Shown here: positions 1,172 to 10,669 of the stretch, piece after piece
Layout of the letters: every line of letters starts with the position of its first letter
Numbering within the stretch: the stretch's first letter is position 1
Assembly (NCBI GenBank): GCA_016879935.1
Contig: JAACJQ010000204.1
Span: 1 to 38,811 of the forward strand
Source of the DNA: Archangiaceae bacterium
GTDB lineage: Bacteria > Myxococcota > Myxococcia > Myxococcales > Myxococcaceae
DNA length: 38,811 nt
Direction: 5' to 3'
The notes under the pieces: model-generated
The model's database searches: none
Told to the model about the DNA's origin: nothing
Seen by the model: the letters and a program-made list of their open reading frames with translations, nothing else
Made by a program: the position numbers and the translations under genes

Positions 1172-1918
1172 TCACGCGAAGGTCTTCACGAAGAACGCGA
1201 TGGTGATGGTCCACCCCAGCACCACCACGACCCGCTTCACCACGCGCACGTCGAACCTCAACGCGAAGCGCGCCGTGACGTAGCCGCCGATGGTGGAGGC
1301 GACCGCCATCGCCAGCGCCCGTGGCCACTCCACCTGACCCGAGATGATGAACGTGAGCGTGGCGGTGAGGTTGATGGCGAGGCCCAACACCGACTTGAGC
1401 CCGTTGAGCCGGTGGAGATCTCGACCACCGAGCAACGTGAGCGCCGCCAGCATGAGCAACCCGATGCCGCCGCCCAGGTAGCCGCCGTAGAGGCTGATCG
1501 GCACCTGCGAAAGCACGACGACCCACAGCGGTGGTTTGCCGAACCGCTCGAGCCACCTGCGCAGACGATCGCCGAAGGTGAAGAGCACCGCGCCGAAGAG
1601 CACCAGAAACGGCACCACCTTCGCGAACGTGTCACCGGGCGTCGCCAGTGCAGCCAGCGCACCGACGAGCCCGCCCACGAGGCTGACGATGATGAGCGGA
1701 ACCAGCGAGCGCCGCTCCTCGTTCATCACCGAGCGGTAGCCCCACGCACTCGCCACCGAACCGGGCCACAACGCCACCGTGCTCGTCGCGTTCGCTGCAA
1801 GGGGAGCCGTGCCGGTGAAGACGAGCGCGGGAAAGGTGAGACACGTGCCACCGCCCGCGATGGCGTTGAGGCCTCCCGCGAGAAAGGCAGCTCCCGTCAG
1901 CAGCACCCAGGTGAACAC
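1172..1918 (-). CDS. TSUP (TauE/SafE) family membrane permease
   Basis: 248 residues with a GTG start. TSUP proteins are inner-membrane carriers associated with sulfite, sulfonate or other organic anion transport. The first helix ends in the family signature AGGLNAIAGGG followed by a Pro-Ala-Leu strand break, and the second half repeats the pattern (YLGGGIGLLML), giving about 8 membrane segments in two repeats, the usual size and plan. It converges with the upstream lipoprotein gene (3 bases apart) and diverges from the phosphatase gene at 1957, so it is its own transcription unit. The substrate cannot be read from sequence. Confidence 0.85.
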   Translation of the reverse strand: MFTWVLLTGAAFLAGGLNAIAGGGTCLTFPALVFTGTAPLAANATSTVALWPGSVASAWGYRSVMNEERRSLVPLIIVSLVGGLVGALAALATPGDTFAKVVPFLVLFGAVLFTFGDRLRRWLERFGKPPLWVVVLSQVPISLYGGYLGGGIGLLMLAALTLLGGRDLHRLNGLKSVLGLAINLTATLTFIISGQVEWPRALAMAVASTIGGYVTARFALRFDVRVVKRVVVVLGWTITIAFFVKTFA

Positions 1919-1956: not shown

Positions 1957-3012
1957 ATGCAGCAGAATCGCCCCATGCGTCACGTCGCCATCGGAGATCC
2001 GCAGGCCCCGTTCGAGACCTTCCTGCGCATTCTCGATGGCCACCGGCTGCTGGCAGACGATGGGCGTTTGCGCCCCGACGTGCACCTCGTCTCGATGGGC
2101 GATCACTTCGACTACGGCAAGCCCGAGCTGCGGGAGCGCGCGGCGGCAGAGGGTGAGTCGATTCTCTCGTGGCTCGCGTCTCACCCGCCCGAGCAGGTGA
2201 CCATTCTGCTCGGCAACCACGATCTCTCGCGCGTCTGCGAACTGTTTCCCTTCACCGACGAGTCCTTTCTCGAGGCGCACGGGGAAGCACGGGCGCTGTA
2301 CGTGGCGAACGCTCCGGCCGATGCGTTCCTCGCGAAGTACCCGTTCGTGCCCGACGCCGAGTGCCTCGCGCGCGACTACTCGTGCTTCGCCGCCTCTCAA
2401 CGCGTGCTGGTGACGGAGCTGCTGCGCACGAAGCGTCTGCGCCTCGCGGCCCATCATCGGGGCCTCCTGCTGGTGCACGCTGGCGTGACGACGCAAGACC
2501 TCGAGCTGGCCGGTATCGCGCCCACCGACGCCGCCGTGGTGAGCGATGGACTCAACGCCTTCCTCGACGAACGGCTCTCACGCTGGAGCGACGGCCCGCT
2601 CGACCTCGCCCCACTCCATCGGCCCGGAACCGCTGCGACGGGAGAAGGCCGCGGCGTGCTCTACCACCGCCCCTGCGACCCCTCGACGCAGCCGCCCGCG
2701 AGAATGGAGGGACCGCCCCGACGACGGTTCGACCCGCGCGATCTGCCCGCCACCTTCCCTCAGGCCATCGGCCACATTCGTGATGGAAAGTGCCGCGAGC
2801 TGATGCCGTCGTGGAGCCCCGAGGGAAAGGGCGCAGATGGGCCGCTCCGTACGCTGAAGGTCGAGGGAACGAACGTCACCTACGCCATGGGTTGTCTGCC
2901 CGGCGCACGGCTCTTCTTCACCGACGGCGGCATGTTCCACACCGCGCCCGAGAACTACGAGCTGTTCGATCTCGACGCGCGCGCGCCCCTCAGCCGGGCT
3001 CGAAGCTCGTGA
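1957..3012 (+). CDS. Calcineurin-like metallophosphoesterase
   Basis: 351 residues from the first ATG; an ATG at 1975, directly before the first conserved strand (RHVAIGD), is the likelier true start (345 residues). The metal-binding motifs are in the usual order: GDPQAP, GDHFDYG, GNHD, and a late HAGV. The first motif has Gln where most PPP-like enzymes have His (GDxH), an uncommon variant that still supplies the metal-binding Asp. The product is probably a cytoplasmic phosphatase related to the Ser/Thr protein-phosphatase and diadenosine-tetraphosphatase group; the substrate is unknown. The 3' end overlaps the convergent EEP gene by 23 bases. Divergent from the TSUP gene with a very short shared upstream region. 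Confidence 0.82.
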   Translation: MQQNRPMRHVAIGDPQAPFETFLRILDGHRLLADDGRLRPDVHLVSMGDHFDYGKPELRERAAAEGESILSWLASHPPEQVTILLGNHDLSRVCELFPFTDESFLEAHGEARALYVANAPADAFLAKYPFVPDAECLARDYSCFAASQRVLVTELLRTKRLRLAAHHRGLLLVHAGVTTQDLELAGIAPTDAAVVSDGLNAFLDERLSRWSDGPLDLAPLHRPGTAATGEGRGVLYHRPCDPSTQPPARMEGPPRRRFDPRDLPATFPQAIGHIRDGKCRELMPSWSPEGKGADGPLRTLKVEGTNVTYAMGCLPGARLFFTDGGMFHTAPENYELFDLDARAPLSRARSS

Positions 3013-3916
3013 TGAGCGGCACGTGATCGGAGAGGCCATGAAATGGGCTCGTCTCGTCGCCGAACGCTCGCGTGTCGTCGAGATCGGCGAACTCGATGCC
3101 CCTGCCGAAGATGTGATCGAGGTGCATTCGAAGCCGCATGAAGCCCGCGGTCGAGAACGAGTCGGGCCGGCTCGCGTCGATCTGCTTCAGTGACTCCTGC
3201 GCACCGAGCAGCTTCGCGTCGCCCGTGAACAGCTTGTACACGGGCGTCGATGGCGCCGAGTTGAAGTCCCCGACGACGAGGTACGGCTCGCTGCGCGCGA
3301 CGTGCTGCGCGTAGTCGGTCACCGCCTTCGCCTCGGTGAGCTGGTTCTTCCCGTGGCCCATCTTCACCTTCTGGCTCCAGAACTCCTTCGCCCAGGGCGT
3401 CGGCAGCGAGAGGTGCGTGTTGAAGAGGTGAAACGGTCTGCCGCTCGTGTCTTCGAGGTGCAGGTGCGCCGCGATGCGCGTCTGCTTGATGCGCTTGATG
3501 GTCGACGGGGAGCGGTGGGTGATGTCGAAGGGCTGATCAGAGTTGCCCTTGAGCACGTTGCACGTCTGCTGGTTCACCAGAATCGCGAGCCCGGTCGTGT
3601 ACACCTTGAGCGGGCCCACGCCGTACACGTGCGCGGGGAAATAGAAGGCCCGGTACGGCATCGCCACGCCGCGCCGCTGCATCGAGCCCCCGAGGTGCCG
3701 CATGAAGGCTTCCAGCTGCGTCTCGGAAGGAACACCTCCTCGATGCGCGGCCGACGAACGAATCGACTTCGTCTCGACCTCCTGCAGCGCGATGACGTCT
3801 ACCATCGGCGCGAGGTTCGCGATGGCGTCGGCGATGTCCTGCTTCGAGGTCGCGGTGCTGGCCAGGCCCTTGAGGGCGTGACCGAAGTAGCGAACGTTGT
3901 AGCTGACGAGTCGCAT
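2990..3916 (-). CDS. Endonuclease/exonuclease/phosphatase (EEP) family protein
   Basis: 308 residues starting MRLVSYNVRYFG. All the EEP catalytic signatures are present: an Asn in the first strand (SYNVR), the metal-binding Glu in ALQEVE near residue 46, the GDFN motif (VVGDFNSAPS) and the C-terminal SDH (LSDHVPLI). The fold hydrolyses phosphodiester bonds in DNA, RNA, inositol phosphates or sphingomyelin, and the motifs alone do not choose among them. There is no signal peptide, so it is probably cytoplasmic. It starts 15 bases after the TfuA stop on the same strand and is probably the last gene of the ycaO-tfuA unit. Its 3' end overlaps the convergent phosphatase gene. Confidence 0.85.
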   Translation of the reverse strand: MRLVSYNVRYFGHALKGLASTATSKQDIADAIANLAPMVDVIALQEVETKSIRSSAAHRGGVPSETQLEAFMRHLGGSMQRRGVAMPYRAFYFPAHVYGVGPLKVYTTGLAILVNQQTCNVLKGNSDQPFDITHRSPSTIKRIKQTRIAAHLHLEDTSGRPFHLFNTHLSLPTPWAKEFWSQKVKMGHGKNQLTEAKAVTDYAQHVARSEPYLVVGDFNSAPSTPVYKLFTGDAKLLGAQESLKQIDASRPDSFSTAGFMRLRMHLDHIFGRGIEFADLDDTRAFGDETSPFHGLSDHVPLITSFEPG

Positions 3917-3931: not shown

Positions 3932-4930
3932 CTAACGCCCACGCCACCGGCCGCTGAGCTTCGCTTCGAGCGCGAGCCCTTCCAGCCAGGTGGGGCCGTC
4001 GGCCACGAAGCGCTCCGGCGCCGAGAGCACGAGCCCTTCGAGGGCCGCAACCTCTGCGTCGCTGAGCGCCTCGTCGACCGCCCCATGGCGATTCGCCGTG
4101 ACCGAGACCGACAAGCCAGCCTGCTTCGCGAACGCGGCCAGGAGCAGTCGACGAAGGCCCTGCTTCGCGAGCGCGTCGGCGTCGGGCAGTCGTTGGAGGC
4201 GCTCCAGCTCGGAGCCATGCGCGTCGAGGAGCCGACGCCGCCGCACGAAGGAGCTCAAGGTGAGGGGGCTCGATGGGCGAGGTGGTTTGCGGAGGAGTTG
4301 CCGAGCGACCTTCAGCGCCGCGAGGGCATCGAGCGCTTTCTGATCGACCAACTGCTCGCGCAGCCAGGTGAACGTCGCCGAGCGCCGCGCCTCGGGGAGC
4401 GCGGTCACGATGGCTCGCCAGGTTCGACGCTTGAAGAAGAGCCCGCGCGCGGCCTCGAGCAGCCGACTCGCTTCACGCTCCGAGACCACGCGCCGTCGCT
4501 TCGCCTCGGCCACGGTCGCTTCCACGTTCACGAGCGGAACCGTCAGCGCCTGGTACTGCGAGTCGGAGTCACCGTGCAGCAAGACCACGTCGGCGTCGTC
4601 GACTCGTGCACCTGAGACGTAGTCGCCCGCGATGCGGCCGACCGGGAGCATGCCTTCTTGATGGAGCTCGGCTGCTCGCAACGCTCCCATGCTCGAGGCG
4701 CCGATGACGTGCACACCGCTGGCGAGCGCGGCGCGCAGCTCGTGGTGCCACACCGAGGGCACCGCCTCGAACACGCCGTCGATGAGCACGATGACGCGCG
4801 GGCGATCGGGCAAGACCCGAAAGACGTCGCCCTGCCTCGCGGGCGGCAGGTAGGTCGCCTTCAGCGTTCGTTTCGCCGTCGCCACTGGCAGCGTCGGCCC
4901 GAGAAACACCACCACCTCACGCGCGCTCAT
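3932..4930 (-). CDS. TfuA domain protein, YcaO partner
   Basis: 332 residues. The N-terminal ~150 residues carry the TfuA signature in order: a first strand ending FLGPTLP, the YLPPARQGD segment, VLIDGVF near residue 48, and the nearly invariant SSMGALRAAEL around residues 79-89, followed by the Asp-rich segment RVDDADVV. TfuA proteins work with YcaO enzymes; in methanogen methyl-coenzyme M reductase and in some ribosomally made peptides the pair converts a backbone amide to a thioamide, TfuA being thought to handle the sulfur donor. The ATG overlaps the ycaO stop (ATGA), so the two are translated together. The C-terminal ~180 residues are Arg/Leu-rich, helical and not recognised. No sulfide-donor or precursor gene adjoins. 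Confidence 0.88.
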   Translation of the reverse strand: MSAREVVVFLGPTLPVATAKRTLKATYLPPARQGDVFRVLPDRPRVIVLIDGVFEAVPSVWHHELRAALASGVHVIGASSMGALRAAELHQEGMLPVGRIAGDYVSGARVDDADVVLLHGDSDSQYQALTVPLVNVEATVAEAKRRRVVSEREASRLLEAARGLFFKRRTWRAIVTALPEARRSATFTWLREQLVDQKALDALAALKVARQLLRKPPRPSSPLTLSSFVRRRRLLDAHGSELERLQRLPDADALAKQGLRRLLLAAFAKQAGLSVSVTANRHGAVDEALSDAEVAALEGLVLSAPERFVADGPTWLEGLALEAKLSGRWRGR

Positions 4931-5946
4931 CGCAGCAGCTCCGACTCTTCGAGGTCGATGCCGATGGCCTTCACGACGTGCAACGGAGCCTCACGCACGG
5001 TCACGAGCACGACGGCGTCGGCGATCACCTTCGGCCAGCCCTTCACCGCTGCACCTCGACGAAGCGGAGCAGGCCTGAGCGTCGAGAAGAAGCGCTGCAA
5101 CTCCGCACCTGCCTCGCGCTCGCCGGTGGCGACGTCGTCGCGGGCGCCATGAATCTCGGTGAGCCGGGACTGCGCGGCCTCGAGCAGCGCGGCTTCGAGG
5201 GCCTCGGGCATCGTCCGCCGACAGGCGTACCCCGCCGTCAGCGGAACCGAGGGTTCGTCGAGATCGAAGACCAACGCGCCCGCGAGCGGCAGTGGTGTGG
5301 CCTGCAGGGCACAACACGCGACGTGAAAGCCGTTGCGGCGCAGCGAGTCGACCAGCGGTGAGCGCCACTCCACCAGCGAACGCTCGAGCGCCTCGGCCGT
5401 CCATCCCTCGGGCAACACGCGCGTCAACGCATGCCGCTCCCAGACCTCGAGCACTGCGTGCTCCGTCGCCTTGCCCTTCACCGAATGGGCGCCGAAGCCG
5501 TTGCTCGACCACGACGTCGTCGAAGGGCCGAGCCACGCCGACCCCGAAGGCCCGCAGAACACGCGCTCGGCGGCCAGCCACACGGGTGCGCCATCGGCGA
5601 GTCGTCGGCCCACGACCCAGGCGCGCCGCAACCCATCGTCGTCGAGCACCGCGCCATCGAGTTCGCCGGCCTCGCAAAACCGGAGCATCGAGGGTCGTGG
5701 CTGCTCGGCGGCGTGCAGCTCGGCGGCCTCTCCGACGGCGCTCCACGCGGCCTGCTCGAACGTCGTGCCCTTCCCCTGCGTCACCTGCAGCACGTGCCCT
5801 GTTGGCCGAATCGCTGCGGCCACCTCGACCCCGGCGCGGTCCATGTCCGTCACCCGGGCCAGCCGTGAGATGCGCAGCTCGGCGAGGAGCGAACGGGAAG
5901 GGAGCACCACGGCATCCCACCACTCGACGAACGGGGGCACACGCAC
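4927..5946 (-). CDS. YcaO domain protein (TfuA-associated)
   Basis: 339 residues with a GTG start. YcaO enzymes use ATP to phosphorylate a peptide backbone amide so that a nucleophile can attack it. The ATP/Mg-binding motifs are intact: S69 with E73 and E76 (AVGEAAEL), E167/E170/R171 (LEVWERHA), and the C-terminal block with E256, Q259, R261 and GARDD at 267-271. The proline-rich tail of azoline-forming YcaO cyclodehydratases is absent (the end is ESELLR), and no ocin-ThiF/E1-like partner is nearby. Both facts, plus the overlapping tfuA gene, point to thioamide rather than azoline chemistry (inference). The target peptide or protein is not evident. Its 47-base upstream gap is shared with the divergent lipoprotein. 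Confidence 0.9.
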   Translation of the reverse strand: MRVPPFVEWWDAVVLPSRSLLAELRISRLARVTDMDRAGVEVAAAIRPTGHVLQVTQGKGTTFEQAAWSAVGEAAELHAAEQPRPSMLRFCEAGELDGAVLDDDGLRRAWVVGRRLADGAPVWLAAERVFCGPSGSAWLGPSTTSWSSNGFGAHSVKGKATEHAVLEVWERHALTRVLPEGWTAEALERSLVEWRSPLVDSLRRNGFHVACCALQATPLPLAGALVFDLDEPSVPLTAGYACRRTMPEALEAALLEAAQSRLTEIHGARDDVATGEREAGAELQRFFSTLRPAPLRRGAAVKGWPKVIADAVVLVTVREAPLHVVKAIGIDLEESELLR

Positions 5947-5993
5947 TTTGCAGCCGGCTCGACGAACGGCGGCGCAGGCACTTTGCTGCGCCC

Positions 5994-6569
5994 GTGCGTT
6001 GGCGGCTCTTCATCTTCTGGTTGGTGTCGCTGGGCTGTGGGCGCACCGAGCCGCTGAACGCGACGATCGCTTTCGACGCCGGAGCGAGGGGTGATGCTGG
6101 CCAGACCTTCGACGCAGGCGGCGTTCGCGACGCGGGAGTCGTCAGCCGAGATGCCGGGGCGCCGACCTCCTGCACCAACGCTCCGGGCCCTCAGCGCGGC
6201 CGCCGCTGTCGGCGCACGCTGCGCCTCGAGTCGCTCACGCGGTCGAGCGCCTCGTGCTTCGTCGACGTGCGAATCGACCTCGCCGAAGAGGGCGTGCTCG
6301 AGTGGGAGTGCGATCAACCTGTCGCCCCCGCCGAGGTCCGGTTCAGCCGTGCCCGCTTCACCGGGGTGGTGAGCGGCAACGACGTCGACGTGTGCTTTGG
6401 CTCTGAGTTCGACTGGTCCGACGGCTGCCGGTGGACCTCGGCTCAGGCGCTGCGCGGCTCGCTGACCGAACCGACCCTGCAGCTCACGTACGCCGAGGCG
6501 CCGGTGATGAACCTGGGCTGTCAGACACCATGCGCTGCCGCGGGAGTCGTCACGGTTCTCACGCCCTGA
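5994..6569 (+). CDS. Hypothetical small lipoprotein
   Basis: 191 residues from a GTG at 5994; the frame is open far upstream on the other side of ycaO, but the hydrophobic leader VRWRLFIFWLVSLGC fixes this start. Cys16 follows a hydrophobic stretch, a loose lipobox (Ser at -3). An Asp/Ala/Gly-rich linker with repeated DAG follows, typical of myxobacterial surface lipoproteins, then a compact domain with several Cys (ECDQP, VCFGS, DGCRW, GCQTPC). The DGCxW motif resembles that in the lipoprotein at 287-1168. Divergent from ycaO with only 47 bases between, so promoters may overlap. No function is recognised. Confidence 0.65.
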   Translation: MRWRLFIFWLVSLGCGRTEPLNATIAFDAGARGDAGQTFDAGGVRDAGVVSRDAGAPTSCTNAPGPQRGRRCRRTLRLESLTRSSASCFVDVRIDLAEEGVLEWECDQPVAPAEVRFSRARFTGVVSGNDVDVCFGSEFDWSDGCRWTSAQALRGSLTEPTLQLTYAEAPVMNLGCQTPCAAAGVVTVLTP

Positions 6570-6801: not shown

Positions 6802-7659
6802 GTGAACTCCTCACGCGCCGTGGGCATCCTGGTCGTCGCGCTCGCGGCGTCGTGCTGGGGCACGTGGCCGCTCTACGTGCGCGCTGGAGGACAGAGCGGG
6901 CTCGTCGTCGGGTTCCTCACCATGGCAGTGATGGCGCTGCCGTCGCTGTTCCTCGTTCGCCGCTTCCGCACCGACGACCGCGGTGCCCTCGCCGCCCTGG
7001 CCGTCATCGGGTTCGCCGACGCGGGAAACGTCGCGCTCTACTTCTCGGCGCTCGAGACCGGGCCAGTCGTCGTGGGCGTGATGACGCACTACCTCGCGCC
7101 CCTGCTGGTGGCCCTCGCCGCGCCACTGCTGCTCCGGGAGCGCCGATCGCGACGAGCGCTCGTCTCGCTGCCCGTCATTCTCTTCGGCTTGTTCCTGGTG
7201 CTGCCCTCGATTGGCGCCAGTGGCTCTGCGTGGCAGGCCGGGCTGCTCGGTGCGGGCTCGGCGATCTTCTACGCGGCGCTCGTGCTCGCGACCCGGCGCG
7301 CGTCGGTGGCGTTTCCACCGCTCGCCGTCACGTCGTTTCACGCGGTGCTCTCGACGTTGCTGCTGCTCGCCGTCTTTCGCGAGCGCGCGCTGCCGACGCA
7401 GGTCGACGCCGGTCTCGCCGTGCTCGTTGCGGGCGCGGCCATCAACGGCTTGCTGGGCGCATTTCTCTTCAACTTCGGCCTGCCGCGAATCGGCGCGCAG
7501 CTGACGGGCGTGCTCACCTATCTCGAGCCGCTCGTTGCCGCGTTGCTGGGCGTGCTGATTCTCCACGAGGTCGCGACGCTCTCGACGCTCGCGGGCCTCG
7601 CCTTGATGCTCGTCGCGGGAGCGTGGACGGCTTCCGAACCGGCACAAGGAGACGCCTGA
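6802..7659 (+). CDS. EamA/DMT-family transporter
   Basis: 285 residues with a GTG start. It has about ten hydrophobic helices in two similar halves, the plan of the drug/metabolite transporter (10-TM, EamA) family. Family landmarks include ASCWGTWPLY in the first helix, ALYFSALE in the third (residues ~75-82), MTHYLAPL at the end of the fourth, and in the second half FNFGLPRIGA and LTYLEPLVAALLG. These proteins export or import small metabolites through the inner membrane; the substrate is unknown. It converges on the outer-membrane protein gene at 7714. Confidence 0.9.
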   Translation: MNSSRAVGILVVALAASCWGTWPLYVRAGGQSGLVVGFLTMAVMALPSLFLVRRFRTDDRGALAALAVIGFADAGNVALYFSALETGPVVVGVMTHYLAPLLVALAAPLLLRERRSRRALVSLPVILFGLFLVLPSIGASGSAWQAGLLGAGSAIFYAALVLATRRASVAFPPLAVTSFHAVLSTLLLLAVFRERALPTQVDAGLAVLVAGAAINGLLGAFLFNFGLPRIGAQLTGVLTYLEPLVAALLGVLILHEVATLSTLAGLALMLVAGAWTASEPAQGDA

Positions 7660-10187: not shown

Positions 10188-10415
10188 TCAGACCGCGCCC
10201 ATCGCGAGCACCGTGTAGACACTCTTGAGGTAGGTATCGAGCGCGTCGAACAGCCTGAGGTACTGCGAGATGCCCATCACGGCGCCGCTGCCGAGGAGCA
10301 ACAGCGCGTGACTGACGATGCTGTACTCGACCATCGACTGACCGCGGCGAAGGCGCTGCTTGAGCGAGCTGCGACGGCGGGAGCTGGGCTGCGTCTGGAG
10401 CATGGTGGTGGTCAT
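10188..10415 (-). CDS. Flp-like (type IVb) prepilin
   Basis: 75 residues. The ATG at 10415 is chosen because a clear GGAGAG ribosome-binding site precedes it; a longer frame runs upstream through the neighbouring gene. The leader is basic (SSRRRSSLKQRLRRG) and ends in the type IVb processing motif G-QSMVEY: Gly at -1, Glu at +5, Tyr at +6, cut by a TadV/CpaA-type peptidase. A 20-residue hydrophobic helix and a short amphipathic tail follow, the normal Flp size. Known Flp proteins polymerise into Tad pili for adhesion or predation contact. No peptidase or Tad ATPase gene is in this window, so its export partners must be elsewhere. Confidence 0.8.
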   Translation of the reverse strand: MTTTMLQTQPSSRRRSSLKQRLRRGQSMVEYSIVSHALLLLGSGAVMGISQYLRLFDALDTYLKSVYTVLAMGAV

Positions 10416-10426
10416 GATCTCTCCGT

Positions 10427-10669
10427 TCAGAAACTGTTCGTGTTCGCCGGCTTCTTCGGCTTCTGGCCCGTGGCGCACGACTGCATGCACTGTTGCTCGG
10501 CTTTCTTGAGCACGGTGGCGCACCCGGCCTTCGCGTCGGGCGTCTGCGCGCCCTCTTTGCACTGCTTCTCGAAGTTCTTGAGCGCCGTCTGACAGTTCCG
10601 AACACAGTCGGCGCGGGCCTCGGCGAGCGTTGCCAGACACAGGAGCGAGAGGGTGAGGAGCCGCTTCAT
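10427..10669 (-). CDS. Small secreted Cys-rich protein
   Basis: 80 residues. Signal peptide MKRLLTLSLLCLATLAEARA, cut before DCVRN. The mature ~60 residues have six Cys in the spacing C-x3-C, C, C, C-x3-C (DCVRNCQ, KQCKEG, AGCAT, QQCMQSC), suggesting a helical hairpin pinned by disulphides. The tail is Lys/Pro-rich (KPKKPANTNSF). The start overlaps the stop of the upstream gene (ATGA) and is preceded by AGGAAG, and the stop is 11 bases from the Flp-like start, so it is firmly within the pilin operon. No family recognised; a periplasmic chaperone or minor pilus-associated factor is possible. Confidence 0.75.
   Translation of the reverse strand: MKRLLTLSLLCLATLAEARADCVRNCQTALKNFEKQCKEGAQTPDAKAGCATVLKKAEQQCMQSCATGQKPKKPANTNSF

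Follow-up and report, generated by a model that had tools for sequence, protein, structure and literature searches.

A standalone YcaO-TfuA pair in one myxobacterial order is a candidate for thioamidating a protein encoded elsewhere

Adjacent ycaO and tfuA genes on a myxobacterial contig form what we regard, with a little better than even confidence, as a self-contained two-gene module for TfuA-dependent backbone thioamidation of a chromosomal protein encoded elsewhere. A substrate encoded away from the pair locus is favoured because no linked substrate was found, the pair is nearly universal as a single copy, and it has been lost as a unit of two genes. We consider a protein a likelier substrate than a RiPP precursor encoded at a distance, as it is rare for RiPP enzymes to be vertically inherited core genes without a linked partner. 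We infer what reaction the pair carries out, where its sulfur comes from and that its substrate is a protein; thioamidation by this pair and its closest relatives, here termed type I, is proposed on grounds of homology.

The locus and its genes

The window, by which we mean the whole 38,811-nucleotide stretch of DNA that was analysed, is contig C145 of a 9.5-Mb, 445-contig, 95%-complete myxobacterial metagenome-assembled genome (MAG), in which a PF02624 search of the whole assembly returned one YcaO. The features considered here are the following:

3932..4930, minus strand: tfuA, encoding a TfuA protein of 332 residues (PF07812, E 3.1e-37)
4927..5946, minus strand: ycaO, encoding a YcaO-family protein of the type I clade, 339 residues as called from the GTG at 5946 (PF02624, E 1.9e-30)
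4927..4930, minus strand: ATGA stop/start overlap of ycaO and tfuA, read from the sequence
5923..5989, minus strand: tandem 32-nt duplication at the 5' end of ycaO (88% identity between copies)
2990..3916, minus strand: EEP (Exo_endo_phos) family gene (PF03372, 1e-14), not judged part of the system
6802..7659, plus strand: EamA-type transporter (PF00892), divergent from ycaO, not judged part of the system
1172-1918, minus strand: TauE/SafE-type transporter, within 5 kb of the pair

The initial annotation described an intact YcaO and TfuA overlapping by four bases, and this is borne out by the Pfam matches and by the shared bases 4927-4930. Both genes are intact and both proteins score far above their family cut-offs, at 106.8 bits against 25.7 for PF02624 and 127.4 bits against 30 for PF07812. 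The same -4 gap separates ycaO and tfuA in 29 of 43 further loci, and the overlap is kept in most loci of another set of homologues.

The true start of ycaO is probably the GTG at 5910 or 5907 and not that at 5946. We prefer the downstream start because the upstream GTG is supplied by the tandem duplication (5923-5954 / 5958-5989), residues 1-11 of the called protein are disordered in the AlphaFold2 model, and the extra N-terminal stretch has no counterpart in homologues, which begin downstream.

Conserved residues, folds and proposed chemistry

Eight YcaO residues (E73, E76, E167, E170, R171, E256, Q259 and R261, window numbering) are invariant or nearly so across 40 homologues and align with the ATP/Mg residues of the M. 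jannaschii YcaO MJ1094. Loss of ATP-binding residues from most homologues, which the initial annotation had named as evidence against thioamidation, is thus not what we see. The AlphaFold2 model of YcaO (pLDDT 92.4) finds its best fold matches in the M. jannaschii and M. kandleri YcaO proteins (Z 28-30.5), with azoline enzymes lower (Z 19-26) and E. coli YcaO at Z 19. In the TfuA model (pLDDT 87.7), the stretch 1-213 takes the fold of M. acetivorans TfuA (6XP8; TM-score 0.90, normalised by the target). The remainder, from about residue 215 to 332, is an all-helical C-terminal extension of four predicted helices that is conserved across the order and for which the whole-protein structure search returned no fold match.

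In the proposed mechanism, YcaO, with ATP and Mg, would turn a backbone amide of the substrate into an activated, phosphorylated amide adduct, TfuA would release sulfide from thiocarboxylated ThiS supplied by thiamine metabolism, and exchange of the amide oxygen for sulfur would add 15.977 Da. Studied systems provide the template: YcaO phosphorylates the amide adduct and TfuA frees sulfide from a thiocarboxylated ThiS-type carrier (PMC5589413, PMC13063428), TfuA being a hydrolase that acts with thiocarboxylated ThiS homologues (PMC13063428). ThiS is encoded in the window genome (contig C281, 18277-18468), and of 29 other genomes tested 28 have it as well.

It is also conceivable that the pair has drifted to another YcaO chemistry (amidine or azoline formation, or proteolytic activity) with a changed role for TfuA, an outcome that we consider improbable. 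Azoline-forming YcaO proteins end in a proline-rich PxPxP C-terminus. The type I YcaO has a shortened C-terminus ending in a nearly invariant SELL, and this feature, the helical domain added to TfuA and the long stem of the type I clade (about 1.0 substitution per site) would all suit such a drift. However, almost every locus that has YcaO also keeps TfuA, and the core residues of TfuA do not vary, as would suit a sulfide-dependent reaction; nor is there an E1-like partner.

Gene neighbourhood and the search for a linked partner

Comparison of type I loci revealed no gene besides the pair itself that is shared between families. The window's clade has 12 loci in which the pair is part of a larger block with EamA, EEP and a convergent metallophosphoesterase, and the EamA neighbour is conserved in this clade only. 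Other Myxococcaceae have an ECF sigma factor, an AhpC/TSA protein, a kinase, DUF2381 and a DNA methylase as neighbours; a third family has an ABC-F ATPase, a Fis-type regulator and an M3 peptidase, and relatives of Anaeromyxobacter have glycogen phosphorylase or an M20 peptidase. A lipoprotein-like gene with Asp-Ala-Gly repeats (5997-6569, plus strand), divergent from ycaO, is weakly conserved in the genus.

The EEP gene, which starts 15 bp past tfuA, had been singled out as an unusual companion, a view that does not survive the comparison. One could imagine the pair and this phosphodiesterase as a single functional unit, for instance for a nucleic-acid or lipid-linked modification, given their spacing in the window and the presence of EEP after tfuA in 12 loci. 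Nevertheless, the whole surrounding block is syntenic in these same loci, and EEP orthologues, found in 44 of 60 relatives, are present where the pair is absent (G002, G007, G008, G011, G015, G025 and G026) and located elsewhere in pair-bearing genomes such as G012, G013 and G016. EEP is a core gene whose adjacency to the pair is only a matter of local synteny; we rejected it as a partner because its distribution is independent of the pair, and we regard a joint function as the least probable of the readings considered here. TauE/SafE was likewise rejected as a sulfur link, since it adjoins EEP at loci where EEP lies apart from the pair (L072, L076 and L091).

The same annotation reported no precursor, E1-like or dehydrogenase gene near the pair and no transporter within 5 kb. 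The first statement holds: we found no E1-like, ocin-ThiF-like or flavin dehydrogenase gene near the pair, including the azoline-type partner whose conservation nearby would have spoken for another chemistry, and no conserved short ORF that is a plausible precursor beside type I pairs in any family. The second needs amendment, as the EamA-type and TauE/SafE-type transporters are both present, but they are not peptide exporters and do not track the pair. Most of the short ORFs that gave hits around type I pairs proved to be shadows on the strand opposite a real gene; one of them, F30 near L055, is a low-complexity frame that we judged to be such a shadow. A secreted, Cys-rich ORF of 80 residues (10427-10669, minus strand) was rejected as a precursor, having a Sec-type signal, a distance of 4.5 kb and a distribution confined to the genus. 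Similar ORFs occupy the syntenic place in L032, L034 and L035. A small Flp/TadE-type pilin-like ORF (10191-10463, minus strand; GQSMVEYSIVSHALLLLG) has relatives near the pair in L032, L034, L035, L037 and L040.

Distribution, inheritance and natural deletions

A profile of the window YcaO, applied to 195 genomes of the phylum, separates its matches into two groups. A genome with type I has one full-length match of about 390-550 bits, whereas the paralogues that we call type II reach about 170-207 bits and can number several in a genome; fragments at contig ends fall below these values. Within the window's family (f1), 80 of 96 genomes carry a single-copy type I gene, as do 18/24, 8/12 and 1/3 genomes of three sister families (f5, f7 and f9, respectively); one genome (G079) is ambiguous in these counts, and absence from other MAGs can be artefactual. 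Named members include Corallococcus, Myxococcus, Pyxidicoccus, Archangium, Hyalangium and Anaeromyxobacter, and none of the 195 genomes carries type I outside the order. Type I forms a clade with a support of 100.

The inheritance of the pair was assessed by comparing a YcaO+TfuA tree with an RpoB tree in 27 genomes. The two trees have 14 of the 24 YcaO+TfuA splits in common, and among the well-supported splits 11 of 15 are common and only 2 conflict. Patristic distances of the pair and of RpoB are correlated (r = 0.57), with 0 of 5000 permutations reaching as high a value. Evolution of the pair is about 5.7 times faster than that of RpoB, and its dN/dS is 0.11-0.43. Judged from these sequences, the type I pair is constrained and transmitted mostly vertically.

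Four complete genomes from the genus-level group of Myxococcus (G051, G153, G155 and G156) carry type II only. At the empty site, the approximately 2.5 kb that holds ycaO and tfuA is replaced by approximately 190 bp (L239 compared with L057), while the flanking AhpC/TSA and kinase genes are the same as in G028 and the locus is otherwise intact. Because the flanks are intact and only ycaO and tfuA are replaced, the type I pair has been lost as exactly two genes. In G002, of the same genus as the window genome, EEP and the metallophosphoesterase are kept and the 738 bp upstream of EEP hold no tfuA. Since loss of the pair is patchy, the modification is dispensable.

Nature of the substrate

That the pair acts on something encoded elsewhere, as initially suggested, is supported by the largely vertical inheritance through the order, the lack of a conserved neighbour and the two-gene empty site. 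By analogy with McrA and E. coli uL16, two proteins that YcaO enzymes are known to modify in trans (PMC5589413, PMC13063428), a chromosomal protein would be more likely than a linked RiPP precursor.

The main rival is that the pair modifies a RiPP precursor from a distant locus and so yields a thioamidated secreted product. Most studied bacterial TfuA-YcaO pairs sit in RiPP clusters (PMC8120280, PMC6511847), a RiPP survey (PMC8120280) names Corallococcus as one of the dominant families of TfuA clusters, and the loss of the pair in some species and its fairly fast evolution would fit a dispensable product. On the other hand, no peptide exporter or tailoring gene, any more than a short ORF, is conserved beside type I in any family, and near-universal, single-copy, largely vertical inheritance over several families is unusual for a RiPP enzyme. 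RiPP-type neighbours are found instead at some type II pairs, and a winged-helix recognition domain is not apparent in either the YcaO or the TfuA model. We consider a distant RiPP precursor unlikely.

Another possible target is the ribosomal protein uL16, which the pair might thioamidate near Met82 as E. coli YcaO does (PMC13063428). The protein and its loop are present in every pair-bearing genome tested. Yet the position equivalent to Met82 is Gln in the window genome and in three genomes of the same genus, and Met in others with the pair; the choice of residue is independent of the pair, with Gln also in the pair-less G059, G060 and G183-G186. Moreover, type I YcaO proteins have a pI of 5.4-11.1 and not of about 4.4, none matches the E. 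coli-type YcaO model NF040716, and no TfuA lies near the suspected uL16-modifying YcaO proteins (PMC13063428). We regard uL16 as a very improbable substrate. As a separate observation, G056 encodes a second uL16 (C54:466-843) that scores over the family cut-off and has Gln at the Met82-equivalent position, with Met in the first copy. Second matches to the uL16-loop pattern, again with Gln as against Met in the first copy, lie in G052 (C1:4168129-4168154), G046 (C125:31461-31486) and G087 (C224:22540-22565).

Returning to a chromosomal protein as the substrate, it should be noted that the rate of evolution relative to RpoB, the patchy loss and the scores below cut-off against the closest curated models all count against it, and protein-modifying YcaO has been argued to be slow-evolving (PMC13063428). 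The fuller proposal, that type I represents TfuA-dependent thioamidation of a folded protein of the cell that is conserved across a single myxobacterial order, is put forward as a tentative one, for which our confidence falls somewhat short of even. If true, this would add to MCR and uL16 a third example of backbone thioamidation in proteins, and the first bacterial example to involve TfuA.

TfuA-associated YcaO proteins with unknown substrates have been noted since at least 2015 (PMC4603692), and TfuA clusters of Corallococcus have been counted in a RiPP survey (PMC8120280). We found no published description of the standalone myxobacterial type I clade in the literature searched, a search that left most subscription papers outside. 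Protein backbone thioamides are easily overlooked, as their mass shift resembles oxidation, and only two proteins are known to carry them (PMC13063428). We suggest that a nearly universal, order-specific pair with no linked substrate, together with the natural two-gene deletion in Myxococcus, offers a tractable route to another thioamidated protein, and that some of the myxobacterial TfuA-YcaO 'RiPP clusters' tallied by genome mining may be enzymes that make no RiPP.

Comparison with known systems

The type II myxobacterial YcaO-TfuA paralogues (L062-L067) belong to the same two families and occur in the same bacterial order, often in several copies per large genome, but they have about 30% identity to the window YcaO and fall outside the type I clade. 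Their neighbours, among them genes of RiPP or regulatory type, include a LanM-like enzyme, a JmjC_2 protein with a glycosyltransferase, or a cyclase-AAA regulator. In L065 (G019 contig C11, 4734-10545) a type II TfuA-YcaO lies between a JmjC_2 protein and a glycosyltransferase; JmjC_2 is the domain of the uL16-arginine hydroxylase RoxA. In L067 (8354-13686) a type II YcaO-TfuA follows a LanM-like enzyme with DUF4135 and a LANC-like domain, which suggests a hybrid lanthipeptide-thioamide cluster. The same cyclase-AAA-TPR type of regulator lies directly upstream of YcaO-TfuA in the myxobacterial L062 (3264-10321) and on the Rhizobium plasmid pRL11 (L167, 2899-7813).

In thioamidated RiPP clusters such as those of thioviridamide and thiovarsolin (PMC8120280, PMC6511847), YcaO-TfuA is likewise the thioamide-forming pair, but these clusters carry precursor and tailoring or export genes, of which none is conserved at type I; no conserved short ORF survived inspection there, and the empty site is a clean one of two genes. 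Azoline-forming (TOMM) cyclodehydratases also differ from type I, which has no E1-like or ocin-ThiF-like gene nearby and ends in SELL and not PxPxP. E. coli YcaO, which thioamidates uL16 (PMC13063428), resembles type I as a bacterial chromosomal YcaO without a linked precursor; unlike type I, it is TfuA-independent, strongly acidic and larger (about 570 residues in 4Q84-4Q86), and it is far from type I in sequence and in fold (Z 19 against 30).

The methanogen pair that forms the thioglycine of McrA (M. acetivorans, M. jannaschii; PMC5589413) has adjacent ycaO and tfuA genes with overlapping stop and start codons, provides the closest fold matches for both proteins and does not require a linked substrate gene. 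It differs in its substrate, as the window genome has no TIGR03256 match to McrA (assembly 95% complete, controls positive), and in lacking the extra helical domain of about 115 residues in type I TfuA and the SELL tail of type I YcaO. The curated McrA-system models TIGR03266 and NF033432 give 71.4 bits against a cut-off of 365 and 173.4 against 235.2, respectively. With the McrA-type YcaO profile, type I scores 71-118 bits, a type II paralogue 246, and Rhizobium and Streptomyces YcaO proteins 137-156. We therefore do not take the methanogen enzymes, although the closest structures, as pointing to a protein substrate, since type II and other bacterial YcaO proteins outscore type I on the same model. 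For this reason, the analogy with methyl-coenzyme M reductase drawn at the outset is retained for the mode of action only.
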